A stretch of DNA of 64,000 nucleotides from Lentilactobacillus raoultii (GTDB lineage Bacteria > Bacillota > Bacilli > Lactobacillales > Lactobacillaceae), in assembly GCF_900411375.1 (NCBI RefSeq), contig NZ_LS422986.1:124001-188000 (forward strand), read 5' to 3'. The notes beneath the pieces were generated by a model, which saw nothing but the letters and a program-made list of their open reading frames with translations, made no database searches and was not told where the DNA came from. Each line of letters opens with the position of its first letter. Within the stretch, counting starts at the first letter, position 1. The position numbers and the translations under genes were made by a program. Shown piece by piece: positions 11,019 to 60,388 of this stretch.

Positions 11019-11100
11019 AAAAAACGCCTACCCATCACATTTAAGGTAGACGTCATCAACTCTTTGTGGATACACGAGTTTTGGCGAACTTCATCGCCAG
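11019..11100 (-). promoter_or_regulatory. Fluoride riboswitch (crcB motif) with terminator
   Basis: Read on the minus strand: GGCGATGAAGTTCGCC (11098-11083) is the conserved first stem-loop of the crcB motif, with the GAUG strand. A second stem follows, then TGATGACGTCTACC (11058-11045), matching the conserved 3' UGAUG.C.CCUAC. CGTCTACC (11052-11045) also pairs with GGTAGGCG (11032-11025), which is followed by six T residues. The aptamer 3' end and the terminator 5' arm are therefore shared. Fluoride binding should favour read-through into the crcB pair. Confidence 0.9.
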
Positions 11101-11114
11101 ATCAATTACAAATT

Positions 11115-15230: not shown

Positions 15231-15263
15231 TCATTTGATTTTTCATTTGAGAATTGTCAAATC

Positions 15264-15333
15264 AGTCTTCCTCCGACAGTTCAAACTGTGTCAGGTTCAA
15301 TGGGTATAATCTCAGCTCAAAAGAGCACCCCAG
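15264..15333 (-). promoter_or_regulatory. TPP riboswitch (THI element) upstream of the AllB-like gene
   Basis: On the minus strand the conserved blocks appear in order: CTGGGGTGC, GCTGAGA, ACCCATTGAACCTGA, then CAGTTTGAACTG and GGAGGAAGAC. These are the P2-J-P3 and P4/P5 thiamine pyrophosphate contacts of the THI box. Binding of TPP should switch off the allB-like/NCS1 operon. Confidence 0.93.
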
Positions 15334-15349
15334 ACATCATTTAATTCAA

Positions 15350-16004: not shown

Positions 16005-16052
16005 CTTTTATCAACATATCATTAGCTGTATCTGAAATAGCTCATGGTTGGT

Positions 16053-16121
16053 TGTCTTCCTCCGGCAGTACGAACTGCATCAGGTTCAATGGGTATTTCT
16101 CAGCCAAAATGGCACCCCAGA
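16053..16121 (-). promoter_or_regulatory. TPP riboswitch upstream of the YkoE-like gene
   Basis: On the minus strand: CTGGGGTGCC, GGCTGAGA, ACCCATTGAACCTGATG, CAGTTCGTACTG and CCGGAGGAAGAC. All THI-box core blocks are present. It differs from the copy at 15264-15333 mainly in the stem sequences, so it is probably a duplicate that diverged while keeping function. Confidence 0.93.
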
Positions 16122-16193
16122 CAATATTCGATTTTGATAGTTATATTATTGCTTAAATAACAGTGAAAAGCAAGCTAACCTAACCTACTAAAT

Positions 16194-57346: not shown

Positions 57347-57655
57347 AAAAATCCGTCCAAAACAAGTTTTTACTTGTTAAGGACGGATTTTTCCGCGGTG
57401 CCACCTTAATTTAACGGGTTGGCAAATGAGGCGACCTAACCGGCCGTTTTAACCGACTCGTTACCCTTGGCGAGATGCCAACACATCTCCGACAACTGAC
57501 GTCTGTCTGAACGTTTCTCCGTACTGAACATGCCGCTTTCAGGAGAACCCTCTGTGGTCCATTTAACTGCCTGCGTTCGATCGTTTTCTCAGCAATCACG
57601 ACTCTCTTTACGTGCACAACAATCTTGATCTCCACATCAATGGTTTATTTAGGAA
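57347..57655 (-). promoter_or_regulatory. T-box riboswitch, tryptophan specifier, upstream of trpEG
   Basis: On the minus strand AAGGTGGCACCGCGG (57407-57393) is the universal T-box/antiterminator sequence. Terminator: AATCCGTCC pairs with GGACGGATT (57350-57390) and a T run follows. In Stem I the bulged codon TGG (57561-57559), in AAATGGACC, is the specifier for Trp. Uncharged tRNA-Trp should allow read-through. No gene in 57234-58009 otherwise. Confidence 0.93.
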
Positions 57656-57703: not shown

Positions 57704-57940
57704 GAATTTATAGAAATCTAATCTCATTGTTTTTAAAAATAACTGAATTGAATCAATCGAAAAGCCGAATTGCTTTAGGTAATCAAAAAATATTGTGGGC
57801 TCATTTTTTATTTTATAGATGAGGAGTAAACCTGCTTAATCTTTGACATGATTGGCTTTTGAGTGGGGGAGAAGTTTGCTGAATAACCGAACATTTAGTT
57901 TAAATAAGTGGCTTATTTTACGAAATTTGAAATCTTTTTA

Positions 57941-57969
57941 TTGACAAGCCTGAAAATAAATTATATGCT
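57941..57969 (+). promoter_or_regulatory. Promoter of the aromatic leader-aroF-aroB transcript
   Basis: TTGACA (57941-57946), 17-base spacer, TATGCT (57964-57969). Divergent from the T-box promoter. Confidence 0.85.
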
Positions 57970-58009
57970 AACAACAATTAAAATTTAACTTTTTAAGGAG
58001 ATTCTAATC

Positions 58010-58063
58010 ATGGCGAAGATCAATCGAAAAATTAATCGATTTTATTACTACTGGTTTTGGTAG
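58010..58063 (+). CDS. Aromatic leader peptide MAKINRKINRFYYYWFW
   Basis: 17 codons, ATG at 58010 with AAGGAG (57995-58000) at 9-base spacing, stop TAG at 58061. The last seven codons encode Phe-Tyr-Tyr-Tyr-Trp-Phe-Trp. Such a run at the end of a short, well-initiated ORF ahead of hairpins is the hallmark of ribosome-mediated attenuation, as in the E. coli phe and trp leaders. Codons 13-15 (58047-58055) can pair with 58110-58118. It precedes aroF, the entry step of the pathway to those amino acids. Confidence 0.8.
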   Translation: MAKINRKINRFYYYWFW

Positions 58064-58246
58064 TGTCTACATCGTACAGGATGCGGACACTTGTCAGCAA
58101 TCCTGTGCGACCAGTAGTTTTTCAGCATGATTAAATCGGTCACACAGTAAACGATCAAAATACTGCGGGACCGATTCAGACAGAATCTCGATAATAACAC
58201 GAAAGAACTCCCGTGGTGTTTTGAACACTGCGGGAGTTTTATTTTA
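58047..58246 (+). promoter_or_regulatory. Attenuator RNA with three hairpins ahead of aroF-aroB
   Basis: Hairpin A: ACTACTGGT (58047-58055, inside the leader peptide codons) with ACCAGTAGT (58110-58118), and nested CGTACAGGAT with ATCCTGTGCG. Hairpin B: AATCGGTC (58134-58141) with GACCGATT (58169-58176) and inner CAGTA/TACTG. Terminator: AACTCCCG (58206-58213) with CGGGAGTT (58231-58238) followed by TTTTATTTTA. GCGGGA in hairpin B could alternatively pair TCCCG of the terminator arm. Exact switching is inferred. Confidence 0.75.
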
Positions 58247-58295
58247 TACAGTTTTCGGTTTTAAAATTTGAAAAAAATGAAAAGAGGATGTTAAC

Positions 58296-59312
58296 ATGAT
58301 TATTATTATCAAAGCAGGTCAGGAACACATGATTGATGAACTTCAAAAGCGATTTGGGACCACAAATGATGTCTTTGTCCATCAAAATCGCGTTGCCTTG
58401 GAAGGAATTACCGAAACTGACTTAACGCCGGATGAACGCGCAGCAGCTGAGCAAATTATCGATAATCCGCCTAAAGCAGTTCAGGGGAGTCGACTATTTC
58501 ATCTCGAGGATACCATTGTCAAAACGGCGCACAGTGAAATTGGTGGTCGCCACTTTACCATGATGGCGGGACCTTGTTCGGTTGAATCAGCTGAACATGT
58601 GATGAAAATGGCGGCGGTTGCCAAACGTGGCGGCGCAACCGTTCTTCGAGGTGGGGCTTTCAAACCACGAACTTCACCTTACTCTTTTCAAGGATTGGGT
58701 GAAGATGGTTTGAGGTATCTACGGGCAGCCGCTGATGCATACGATTTGGACGTCTTAACCGAGGTTATGGACCAGGATCATGTTGACATGATCGCCCGAT
58801 ACACCGATATTTTTCAAATTGGTGCCCGAAACATGCAAAACTTTTCACTGCTTAAAGCGGTCGGAAAAACCCGTATTCCGGTCATGTTAAAACGGGGAAT
58901 GTCCGCAACCATTGATGATATTTTAAATGCTGCTGAATACATTGCGGCAGGTGGTAATCATCAGATTATGATTACGGAACGTGGCATTCGGACGTTTGAT
59001 AATCAATACACCCGTAACACGCTGGATGTTGGAGCCGTTCCAGTTCTCCAAAAACTGACTCATTACCCAGTCATCGTTGACCCAAGTCACGCTGCCGGTC
59101 ACACTGAATTTGTAACACCCGAAGCACTTGCCGGGGTAGCTGTTGGCGCTAGTGGTCTAGTTGTTGAAATTCATGATGATCCTGCCCATGCCTTTTCAGA
59201 TGGCGCCCAAGCATTAAAGCCCGATGAATACCTTGAAATGGCACGCCAAGCATTTGCAATTCGTAACACATTAACGACACCAGTTGAAGAAAAAAGTGAG
59301 GTTGAATTATGA
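58296..59312 (+). CDS. aroF: 3-deoxy-D-arabino-heptulosonate 7-phosphate synthase (type I-beta)
   Basis: 338 residues, same length as the Thermotoga maritima enzyme. An N-terminal ferredoxin-like/ACT-type regulatory domain (about 1-70), then the barrel with MAGPCSVES, GGAFKPRTSPYSFQGLG, QIGARNMQNF, LKRG and DPSHAAGH. Condenses PEP and erythrose-4-phosphate, the first step of the shikimate pathway; the N-terminal domain gives Tyr/Phe inhibition in known members. GAGGATG precedes the ATG. Overlaps aroB by 4 bases. Confidence 0.93.
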   Translation: MIIIIKAGQEHMIDELQKRFGTTNDVFVHQNRVALEGITETDLTPDERAAAEQIIDNPPKAVQGSRLFHLEDTIVKTAHSEIGGRHFTMMAGPCSVESAEHVMKMAAVAKRGGATVLRGGAFKPRTSPYSFQGLGEDGLRYLRAAADAYDLDVLTEVMDQDHVDMIARYTDIFQIGARNMQNFSLLKAVGKTRIPVMLKRGMSATIDDILNAAEYIAAGGNHQIMITERGIRTFDNQYTRNTLDVGAVPVLQKLTHYPVIVDPSHAAGHTEFVTPEALAGVAVGASGLVVEIHDDPAHAFSDGAQALKPDEYLEMARQAFAIRNTLTTPVEEKSEVEL

Positions 59313-60388
59313 AAATTATCAAAGTGACTTTACCCGATCATTCATACAATGTTGAAATTGAAAGTGGCATTTTAAGTTGTACCGGTCAGTTAGTTTCAAG
59401 TGTCTGGGATGAAAGAAAGATTGCGTTGGTCAGTGACAGTAATGTTGCCCCCCTGTACCAACAAAAAGTTTCGGATGCACTGATCAGTGTCGGCTTTACT
59501 GTTCATAACTACCAGTTTCCAGCCGGTGAAGCTTCTAAATCGCTTGAAGTATTGGCTGATTTGACCCGAGAATTGGCGGCTGACGGCTTTACCCGAGACG
59601 ATGGTGTGATTGCATTAGGTGGCGGGGTTACCGGTGATTTGGCCGGTTTTCTTGCCGCAACGTACATGCGGGGAATCAGCTTGATTCAGATGCCCACTTC
59701 ATTATTGGCACAGGTAGATAGTTCGGTTGGGGGCAAAACGGCCGTTGATTTAGACACTACCAAAAACATCATTGGTGCCTTTTATCAACCGGACTTGGTG
59801 ATTATTGATCCGGAAACTTTAACCACCCTGGATCGTCGGGACTTAGTTGAGGGCTATGGTGAAATTGTCAAAGAGGCCGCCTTAACGGATGGTAAACTTT
59901 GGGAATTGGTTAAAGAAATTGAGTCACCATCTGCCATTCTGGAGAATGCTGAAGAGCTAAGTCGTTTGTCAATTCAATACAAAGCTGATGTTGTTATGGG
60001 TGATGAAAAAGAAGGCGGTCTTCGTCAAGTCCTTAATTTCGGCCACACAATCGGGCATGCAATTGAGGCTTTGGCAGACGGCGATCTTCGTCACGGTGAG
60101 GTTGTCAGTGTTGGGATGGTGGCCATAACGCGTATTTTTGAAGAAAAGGGACTCACCCAAGCGGGCGTCACGGAAAAGCTGATTAATCGTTTGGATGCTG
60201 TCGGATTACCGGTAAGTTCGCCACTTCTGGAATCGAGTGATATTTTTGATAAGATTAAAAATGATAAAAAGAATCATACCGGTCATTTAAATCTGGTTTA
60301 CCTACATCAAATTGGCGGTCCAGCGATCAAATCAATTCCGTCTGAAGAAATTCGAGACTTTCTAAACATTAAAGCACTTCAATCATAA
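59309..60388 (+). CDS. aroB: 3-dehydroquinate synthase
   Basis: 359 residues. NAD-binding GGGVTGDLAGFLAATYMRG, DSSVGGKTAVD, GAFYQPDLVI, and metal-binding His in LNFGHTIGHAIE and LRHGEVVSVG. Second step of the shikimate pathway, converting DAHP to 3-dehydroquinate. ATGA overlap with aroF implies coupled translation under the leader attenuator. Confidence 0.96.
   Translation: MKIIKVTLPDHSYNVEIESGILSCTGQLVSSVWDERKIALVSDSNVAPLYQQKVSDALISVGFTVHNYQFPAGEASKSLEVLADLTRELAADGFTRDDGVIALGGGVTGDLAGFLAATYMRGISLIQMPTSLLAQVDSSVGGKTAVDLDTTKNIIGAFYQPDLVIIDPETLTTLDRRDLVEGYGEIVKEAALTDGKLWELVKEIESPSAILENAEELSRLSIQYKADVVMGDEKEGGLRQVLNFGHTIGHAIEALADGDLRHGEVVSVGMVAITRIFEEKGLTQAGVTEKLINRLDAVGLPVSSPLLESSDIFDKIKNDKKNHTGHLNLVYLHQIGGPAIKSIPSEEIRDFLNIKALQS

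Follow-up and report, generated by a model that had tools for sequence, protein, structure and literature searches.

A very probable ribosome-mediated attenuator of aroF-aroB in Lentilactobacillus raoultii, with a chain of alternative pairings and related aromatic leaders in other Lactobacillaceae

The aroF-aroB upstream region

The window analyzed here is a 64,000-nucleotide stretch of the Lentilactobacillus raoultii genome (contig NZ_LS422986.1, 124,001 to 188,000), and all positions are counted from its first base. Between the divergent trpE-trpG genes and aroF-aroB lies a short ORF preceded by a ribosome-binding site of its own and followed by a series of possible hairpins that ends in a terminator-like hairpin before aroF. 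A sequence-only reading of the window had proposed ribosome-mediated attenuation of aroF-aroB at this place. The ORF, the promoter-like site, the 9-base pairing of the codons, the second hairpin (58134-58149 with 58161-58176) and the terminator that it described were all found where it had put them, and NCBIfam and Pfam models agree with its naming of the genes 3' of the terminator. The features of the region are:

57376..57649, minus strand: T-box (RF00230) 5' of the divergent trpE-trpG; 85.7 bits, under the Rfam cut-off of 93; specifier read by eye as UGG (Trp); a neighbour, outside the proposed attenuator
57941..57969, plus strand: promoter-like site, TTGACA-17-TATGCT, 10 of 12 consensus bases
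57995..58000, plus strand: Shine-Dalgarno AAGGAG of the leader ORF, 9 nt 5' of the ATG
58010..58063, plus strand: leader peptide ORF; ATG at 58010, 17 codons MAKINRKINRFYYYWFW, stop TAG at 58061-58063; aromatic run kept in relatives
58040..58060, plus strand: candidate sensor codons F Y Y Y W F W; the genus core is Tyr-rich plus Trp
58296..59312, plus strand: aroF, DAHP synthase (PRK08673 / TIGR01361; NCBIfam, Pfam)
59309..60388, plus strand: aroB, 3-dehydroquinate synthase (TIGR01357; NCBIfam, Pfam)

By itself the promoter-like score carries little weight, because 7 such sites occur in the 2.5 kb that we scanned and 5.5 are expected. A similar -10-like box can be seen by eye in rows L001-L015 of the genus alignment, not in L017-L020. 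The same scan gave the terminator-like hairpin of 17 pairs at 58204-58240 (2 found, 2.7 expected). Taken as a whole, 57976-58250 folds at -98.5 kcal/mol compared with -55.4 for shuffled sequences (sd 4.7; z -9.1), and 0 of 200 shuffles fold as low.

The trpE-trpG T-box and the proposed aroF attenuator stand back to back in one shared intergenic region. The sequence-only reading had remarked that control of this kind in Firmicutes is usually by T-boxes, and they are indeed common in this genome, with 50 matches, 18 of them above the cut-off. Elsewhere in the window, the minus strand carries two TPP riboswitch aptamers ~700 nt apart (15251-15342 and 16040-16129) and a fluoride riboswitch (11040-11107).

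A chain of alternative pairings

We divided the region from the codons to the terminator into eight segments:

58047..58055, plus strand: segment a, inside the Tyr-Tyr-Trp codons; partner 58110-58118 in the predicted termination state
58062..58073, plus strand: segment b; predicted partner 58080-58091 when a ribosome stalls upstream
58073..58091, plus strand: segment c; partner b (through 58080-58091) or d (58073-58082 with 58100-58109)
58100..58118, plus strand: segment d; pairs with c and a (termination) or with e (antitermination, 58103-58112 with 58138-58147)
58134..58149, plus strand: segment e; partner d or f; GGTCACACAGT in 19 of 20 genus rows, GGCCACACAGT in L016
58155..58176, plus strand: segment f; pairs with e (anti-antiterminator) or g
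58204..58224, plus strand: segment g, terminator 5' arm; pairs with h (termination) or f (antitermination)
58224..58246, plus strand: segment h, terminator 3' arm and T-rich tail; partner g

The pairings form a chain that runs from the codons (a:d) through b:c, c:d, d:e, e:f and f:g to the terminator g:h. They fall into two sets, a:d, c:d, e:f and g:h for termination and b:c, d:e and f:g for antitermination. The perfect pairing of 58047-58055 with 58110-58118 had already been seen from the sequence alone and is borne out at 9 of 9 bases. Three pairings had been missed, namely f:g (58155-58170 with 58209-58224, antiterminator against terminator 5' arm), b:c (58062-58073 with 58080-58091) and d:e, which has one mismatch.

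In the window, the hairpin energies are -34.5 kcal/mol for a:d plus c:d, -14.0 for b:c, -22.7 for c:d, -12.8 for d:e, -15.5 for e:f, -24.6 for f:g and -23.9 for g:h. Over the genus sequences, mean duplex energies of the seven predicted partners range from -10.0 to -21.8 kcal/mol, and all other combinations of the eight segments reach at most -8.8 (b and c as cut overlap by 2 bases). The a:d duplex is weak in L017-L020, at -5.4 to -6.8 kcal/mol. Two further pairings were considered and dropped: the start-codon region 58005-58017 with 58121-58133, which we set aside, and 57990-58005 with 58182-58197, whose second partner is missing from many genus rows. We also observed that A142 (58142) is invariant in 20/20 genus rows though it is mismatched in both e:f and d:e, and C108 (58108), opposite it in d:e, is likewise invariant in the genus.

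Conservation within the genus

An AroF search of 60 relatives gave 41 matches at E <= 1e-60, 20 of them in the genus of the window with its own genome included. The sequence-only reading had named an alignment of relatives as the check on its proposal, and lack of conservation of the short ORF or its aromatic codons as the outcome that would speak against it. In that alignment the aromatic block and the hairpins are kept in 20/20 genus loci with aroF and the whole leader in 19/20. A motif finds the leader in 18 of the 20; L012 is a one-base variant, and L016 has the aromatic block INRYYYYWFR before its stop, with the leader start at or beyond the contig end. The ribosome-binding region GGRGAYTCT is present in 19/20, the exception again being L016, which reaches only the contig end. 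The four genus genomes in which AroF had no match (G002, G006, G014 and G020) likewise lack the element.

Leader endings in the genus include FYYYWFW, FYYYWFG, FSYYWPL, SYYFWPR, YYYWSR and similar. In all 20 leaders a Trp codon stands three codons ahead of the stop, and that of the window ends in a second one. The final Phe-Trp of the window is not conserved (other endings are WFG, WFR, WPL, WFV, WYA, WPR and WSR), so that the genus-conserved part is Tyr-rich plus one Trp, with Phe present only in some. The alignment also has near-invariant blocks, such as GTGCGRCC and the segment e sequence given above, each with two partners, and having two pairing partners can explain why these blocks do not vary within the genus.

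The sequences are related, so covariation and conservation counts here and below are not counts of independent events. Across the 20 genus sequences, 85.8% of cells in the termination set are paired, with two-sided changes in 12 pairs and 29 two-sided cells compared with 14.8 in shuffles. For the antitermination set the figures are 88.3% of cells, 9 pairs and 20 two-sided cells compared with 7.8. When the helices are slid along the alignment, 32-47% of cells pair. The b:c pairing is held through two-sided changes within the genus, and d:e shows a constant C-A mismatch and zero two-sided changes in the 20 sequences. Extra pair types are no more frequent than in shuffles in either set of the genus alignment, nor for b:c and d:e in the wider alignment described below.

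Spread through the family and order

Searching with the exact hairpin pattern gave 19/397 family genomes, all in the genus of the window and with one copy each, which suggested an element restricted to the genus. Covariance models overturned this idea. A model built from the 20 genus leaders (R1) matched 78/397 family genomes in 13/40 genera at E <= 0.05, and a wider model from 76 rows (R2) matched 108/397 genomes in 21/40 genera at E <= 0.01, leaving 289/397 with no match. The sequence-only reading had expected such a leader to be unusual; by these counts leaders of this kind are not rare in lactobacilli. R2 matches a single place in the genome of the window, and plasmid records gave no match. 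In an order-wide sample, R2 matched 15/295 genomes, including 8 outside the family (E 4.5e-4 to 0.01).

We read the loci of all 58 R1 genomes outside the genus and 40 further R2 loci, 98 in total; the R2 matches in G271 and G348 are not among them. A script found the leader in 56 of the 58, with L226 recognized by eye and L181 as the other exception, and a looser script found an aromatic leader in 40/40 of the further loci. By a strict criterion (at least 4 aromatics in the last 9 codons), leaders are present in 94/98 loci outside the genus. Shuffling the 100 upstream bases gave a mean of 1.5 and a maximum of 5 per 98 loci in 40 shuffles, and removing one or two bases gave 0 leaders. Both models include the codon stretch, so aromatic codons in their matches are partly expected; the start codon, the ribosome-binding site and the frame lie outside the models. 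For L033 and L182, the AroF genes are at two places, and a leader is in reach only for the L182 copy.

As a negative control we ran R2 on 80 named aroF loci (L031-L110). It matched 5 of the 7 Lactobacillaceae among them (L. otakiensis, Lentilactobacillus sp., Secundilactobacillus hailunensis, S. paracollinoides and Ligilactobacillus ruminis), with no match in S. collinoides L033 or Weissella L037. At E <= 1 it matched 0 of the 73 other named loci, several of which have little upstream sequence.

The genes that follow are of the shikimate pathway, or encode transketolases, aminotransferases or transporters. We took as the downstream gene the nearest blastx match to a small reference set, which is not always the first gene; in L256 (G209), for example, the leader is followed by an ORF that by eye resembles a nucleotide-sugar epimerase, not a transketolase, which may reflect a rearrangement or a break in the assembly. 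The 58 loci gave transketolase 30 times, aroE 19, aroF 6, aminotransferase 2 and aroC once. The 40 further loci gave transketolase 12 times, aroE 9, aminotransferase 8, TrpX-type binding protein 6, MFS transporter 3, and aroF and an aroB-like gene once each. The erythrose 4-phosphate that DAHP synthase uses as a substrate is a product of transketolase. NCBIfam supplied the identities of the aro and transketolase references. Those for the aminotransferase, TrpX and MFS genes were drawn from the loci themselves, so their counts show mutual likeness only, and the TrpX model match is under the curated cut-off (321.5 of 390 bits). The MFS transporters behind aromatic leaders in L249, L259 and L263 are candidate aromatic transporters.

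Covariation outside the genus

The filtered family alignment holds 78 sequences after removal of 15 weak opposite-strand rows, which we took to be mirror images of the hairpins. A second alignment, likewise wider than the genus, holds 76 of these (74 distinct), L226 and L227 having fallen under the E-value limit. In the 58 rows outside the genus, the helices fitted by the model are paired at 99% for a:d, 92% for c:d and 94% for e:f. Of the helices that the model did not fit, b:c is paired at 80% and d:e at 74%, versus 28-49% when slid. In the wider alignment, unfitted b:c and d:e together are 81.2% paired (28-44% slid), with two-sided changes in 14 of 21 pairs. Two-sided cells number 283 in the fitted set compared with 78.8 in shuffles, and 109 in the unfitted set compared with 44.2; segments d and e are each also constrained by their other partners.

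The helix that includes the codons is 98.0% paired in the wider alignment, with two-sided changes in 7 of its 9 pairs. Synonymous TAT/TAC changes in the Tyr codons are matched across a:d (CG 52 / UA 18 in one pair, UA 50 / CG 23 in another). In L188, of genus g33, the sequences of d and e differ and by eye still pair around the same C-A mismatch. The leader of L183 (G236), SYYYYQPR, has no Trp codon, and its a:d helix is kept through changes on both sides.

Proposed mechanism and folding model

The arrangement suggests the following sequence of events. The leader peptide would be translated behind RNA polymerase. With charged Tyr- and Trp-tRNA (here also Phe-tRNA) available, the ribosome would run through the codons and leave; a:d and c:d could then pair, e:f would pair next, and the terminator g:h would form before aroF. 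When an aromatic aminoacyl-tRNA is short, the ribosome would stall on the aromatic codons and cover a. Then b:c and d:e would form, e would be unavailable to f, and the free f would pair with the terminator 5' arm g, letting transcription enter aroF-aroB. What we infer here is that the leader is translated, that ribosomes stall on it, in which order the RNA folds during transcription and that the outcome follows amino-acid supply.

In the folding model, d:e probabilities were averaged for each sequence after its weakest quarter of d:e pairs had been dropped. For RNA cut off just 3' of e, the mean for 78 sequences was 0.01 when free and 0.47 when the codon segment was masked; it went up in 62, down in 0 and was unchanged in 16, and it exceeded 0.5 in 39/78 masked and 0/78 free sequences. 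With a intact and the upstream bases masked the mean was 0.10, and so in silico it is the masking of a that appears to favor d:e. Masking to 58052 or 58061 gave means of 0.45 and 0.44, masking to 58067 gave 0.20, and masking through b as well gave 0.44 again; the last two values do not support ribosome release at the stop codon as the "off" position.

For single stalls in the window we assumed a ribosome footprint edge ~12 nt past the A site. A stall at Tyr12 gave a d:e probability of 0.50 at RNA end 58148, 0.10 at 58160 and 0.00 at 58172, with f out. With a stall at Trp15, c:d stays at 0.95 and d:e is 0.01 at equilibrium, which leaves Trp sensing unsupported by the folding model. The model favors Tyr over Trp as the stall that would matter. 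The sequence-only reading had a stall at any aromatic codon disrupting its hairpin A; "any" goes too far, given the Trp15 result and the unconserved final Phe-Trp, where a ribosome would cover segment b too. Nor does loss of hairpin A alone explain antitermination, as that reading had it, and a relay of d:e and f:g could. At RNA end 58230, f:g in the window is at 0.97-0.99 whether the ribosome stands at a Tyr codon, a Trp codon or the stop codon. When the full-length RNA is folded at equilibrium with a ribosome at each codon in turn, the terminator wins at every position, so the switch would have to be kinetic and decided during transcription.

Terminators and variants

A permissive scanner, used with no shuffle control, found a terminator-like hairpin 3' of the leader in 78/78 sequences. 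A U-tract (at least 5 T in 8) follows e:f in 42/78, including 16/20 in the genus; the window has none there. The f:g pairing is at or above the best 5% of shuffles in 59/78, and fails in 6/6 rows of genus g33, 4/7 of g47 and 3/3 of g2. At the thresholds used, the three g2 rows have neither f:g nor a U-tract after e:f. There seems to be a range of forms, with one end like the trp attenuator, where e:f looks like the terminator and f:g is absent (the six g33 rows), and the other a relay with f:g and no U-tract after e:f (the window and 13/14 Secundilactobacillus rows). Where both terminators are present, one stall could open first one and then the other, since f serves both as 3' arm of the first and as the antiterminator, acting on g, of the second. 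The idea that f:g is always kept in members with no first U-tract was considered and dropped, since g2, L170, L203, L214 and L223 lack both at the thresholds used.

Comparison with known systems

The trp, phe and his attenuators of E. coli and Salmonella combine leader codons, ribosome stalling and mutually exclusive hairpins, and the his leader works as a relay of A:B, C:D and E:F against B:C and D:E. The element described here shares these traits with the enteric attenuators and differs in its longer chain, in its several aromatic amino acids and in the U-tract that follows e:f in part of the sequences. T-boxes read a tRNA through one specifier codon and use no ORF. They resemble the element in that they commonly control amino-acid genes in this genome, one of them driving the divergent trpE; we found no T-box specifier stem or antiterminator on the aroF strand, the neighboring T-box being on the other strand. 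A T-box, a riboswitch or a known Rfam leader (Trp, Phe, His, Leu/phe) at the locus was rejected for lack of a match: in 57930-58310 no riboswitch or T-box family matched at E <= 5, and the 8 Rfam matches at that threshold are all under gathering scores, none of them a leader family.

Scanning 16 loci against Rfam gave RF02863 above its gathering score, at the leader, in L239 and L245, which belong to two other families, and no match over a gathering score in the other 14. RF02863 has no match in the window or its genome. Among the matches listed, it coincides with at least 7 of the 8 R2 places outside the family. In the order sample it matches 162/295 genomes in 51/74 genera at E <= 0.01 (71 above the cut-off), and it matches 0/14 control genomes. 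We read 28 RF02863 loci from 24 of the 162 genomes, some of them below the cut-off, and found an aromatic leader in 28/28 (24 by script, 4 by eye); TrpX-like genes follow in 24 and aroE-aroF-aroB in 3, and one locus (L292) has neither. The RF02863 model pairs an F-S-Y-F-R stretch with a downstream arm and then has an e:f-type hairpin, much as here. Most of its leaders read FSYFR or FSFFR, and differ from ours in having no Trp.

The family is named "Enterococcus sRNA 2410", which we take from the name to be sRNA_2410 of E. faecium. In the accessible parts of the publication, sRNA_2410 is a 195 nt sRNA validated by Northern blot with two transcripts, and those parts mention no leader ORF or attenuation (PMC5593968). 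From the sequences read, RF02863 members may well be attenuators, and the sRNA_2410 transcripts may be terminated leader transcripts.

As far as the accessible portions of the papers go, ribosome-mediated attenuation has been described in Firmicutes for hisS/hisZ leaders (PMC2965389), Listeria rli60 (PMC5864092), his operons of the B. cereus group and others (PMC9413887), a leucine-rich attenuator of S. aureus (PMC5794164) and the Lactococcus Leu/phe leader RF01743 (PMC2864571). These follow the same or a similar principle, which is therefore not new in Gram-positives; they differ in amino acids and genes, and none has an Rfam match here. Closest in position is the uORFC-13-1 motif of Acholeplasma, a short ORF 5' of a terminator and aroF, for which the available text proposes that termination depends on how fast Phe is incorporated, and which is described there with Phe codons only and from Acholeplasma and environmental sequences only (PMC8632094). 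Two Acholeplasma aroF loci in our set (L067 and L089) have aromatic short ORFs, which by genus and gene are presumably this motif. In a comparison that used R2 as its model, they gave no match at E <= 1. A literature search, with subscription papers mostly outside its reach, did not find the element in lactobacilli. Ribosome-mediated attenuation is a known kind of control; as far as we searched, the family and the relay are new.

Weighing the explanations

The region has an ORF with its own ribosome-binding site 5' of the operon, a run of codons for end products of the pathway, mutually exclusive helices that covary and include those codons, and a terminator between leader and aroF. From this pattern we consider it very probable that 58010-58246 is a ribosome-mediated attenuator of aroF-aroB responding to aromatic amino acids, as first proposed; the comparative evidence strongly supports that proposal, with the details corrected as above. 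A plainer attenuator, in which a:d and a terminator with f:g suffice and d:e and b:c are decorative, would account for the effect of masking a in the window, which at RNA end 58230 takes the f:g probability from 0.23 up to 0.97, d:e being no higher than 0.03. However, b:c is kept through two-sided changes in the genus, and other genera retain both b:c and d:e, neither of which was among the fitted helices, so we think this version unlikely.

Another kind of reading makes the ORF or its position beside aromatic genes incidental. Termination at g:h could release an sRNA, or the leader peptide, that acts in trans; homologues match a family named as an sRNA, with the two Northern transcripts mentioned above, and the accessible literature includes a trans-acting attenuator peptide, peTrpL, in Sinorhizobium. 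Yet an in-frame aromatic ORF stands in nearly all of the strictly scored loci and in every RF02863 locus read, aromatic-pathway or transporter genes follow nearly all leaders, and two alternative covarying structures plus a terminator are what an attenuator needs, not a plain sRNA, which makes action in trans very improbable. Least credible of all, and in our judgment close to negligible, is a metabolite-binding riboswitch or a protein-binding attenuator that senses the aromatics directly. The near-invariant blocks GTGCGRCC and GGTCACACAGT could form a binding pocket; however, they change outside the genus (g33 has CTTAG/CTAAG), the ORF retains its start codon, ribosome-binding site and frame, and, as noted, riboswitch and T-box families gave no match in 57930-58310.

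With ribosome-mediated attenuation as the preferred reading of the locus, we lean, with clearly less assurance, towards an order-wide attenuator family for aromatic metabolism in Lactobacillales. RF02863 would be one of its branches and not an sRNA, many members would have coupled terminators, and the genes controlled would be those of the shikimate pathway, transketolase heading an aro operon, aminotransferases and TrpX-type transporters.

Implications

Amino-acid genes in Lactobacillales are usually discussed as controlled by T-boxes. If the reading given here is true, it suggests why both kinds of control coexist, since a T-box reads one tRNA and a string of codons can answer to several. 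A catalogued sRNA family would then become a switch with a testable input, and food bacteria would have a tunable aromatic sensor. The linear chain of seven pairings would make a clean model of co-transcriptional RNA switching, with natural variants that have the trp-like form at one end and the relay at the other.
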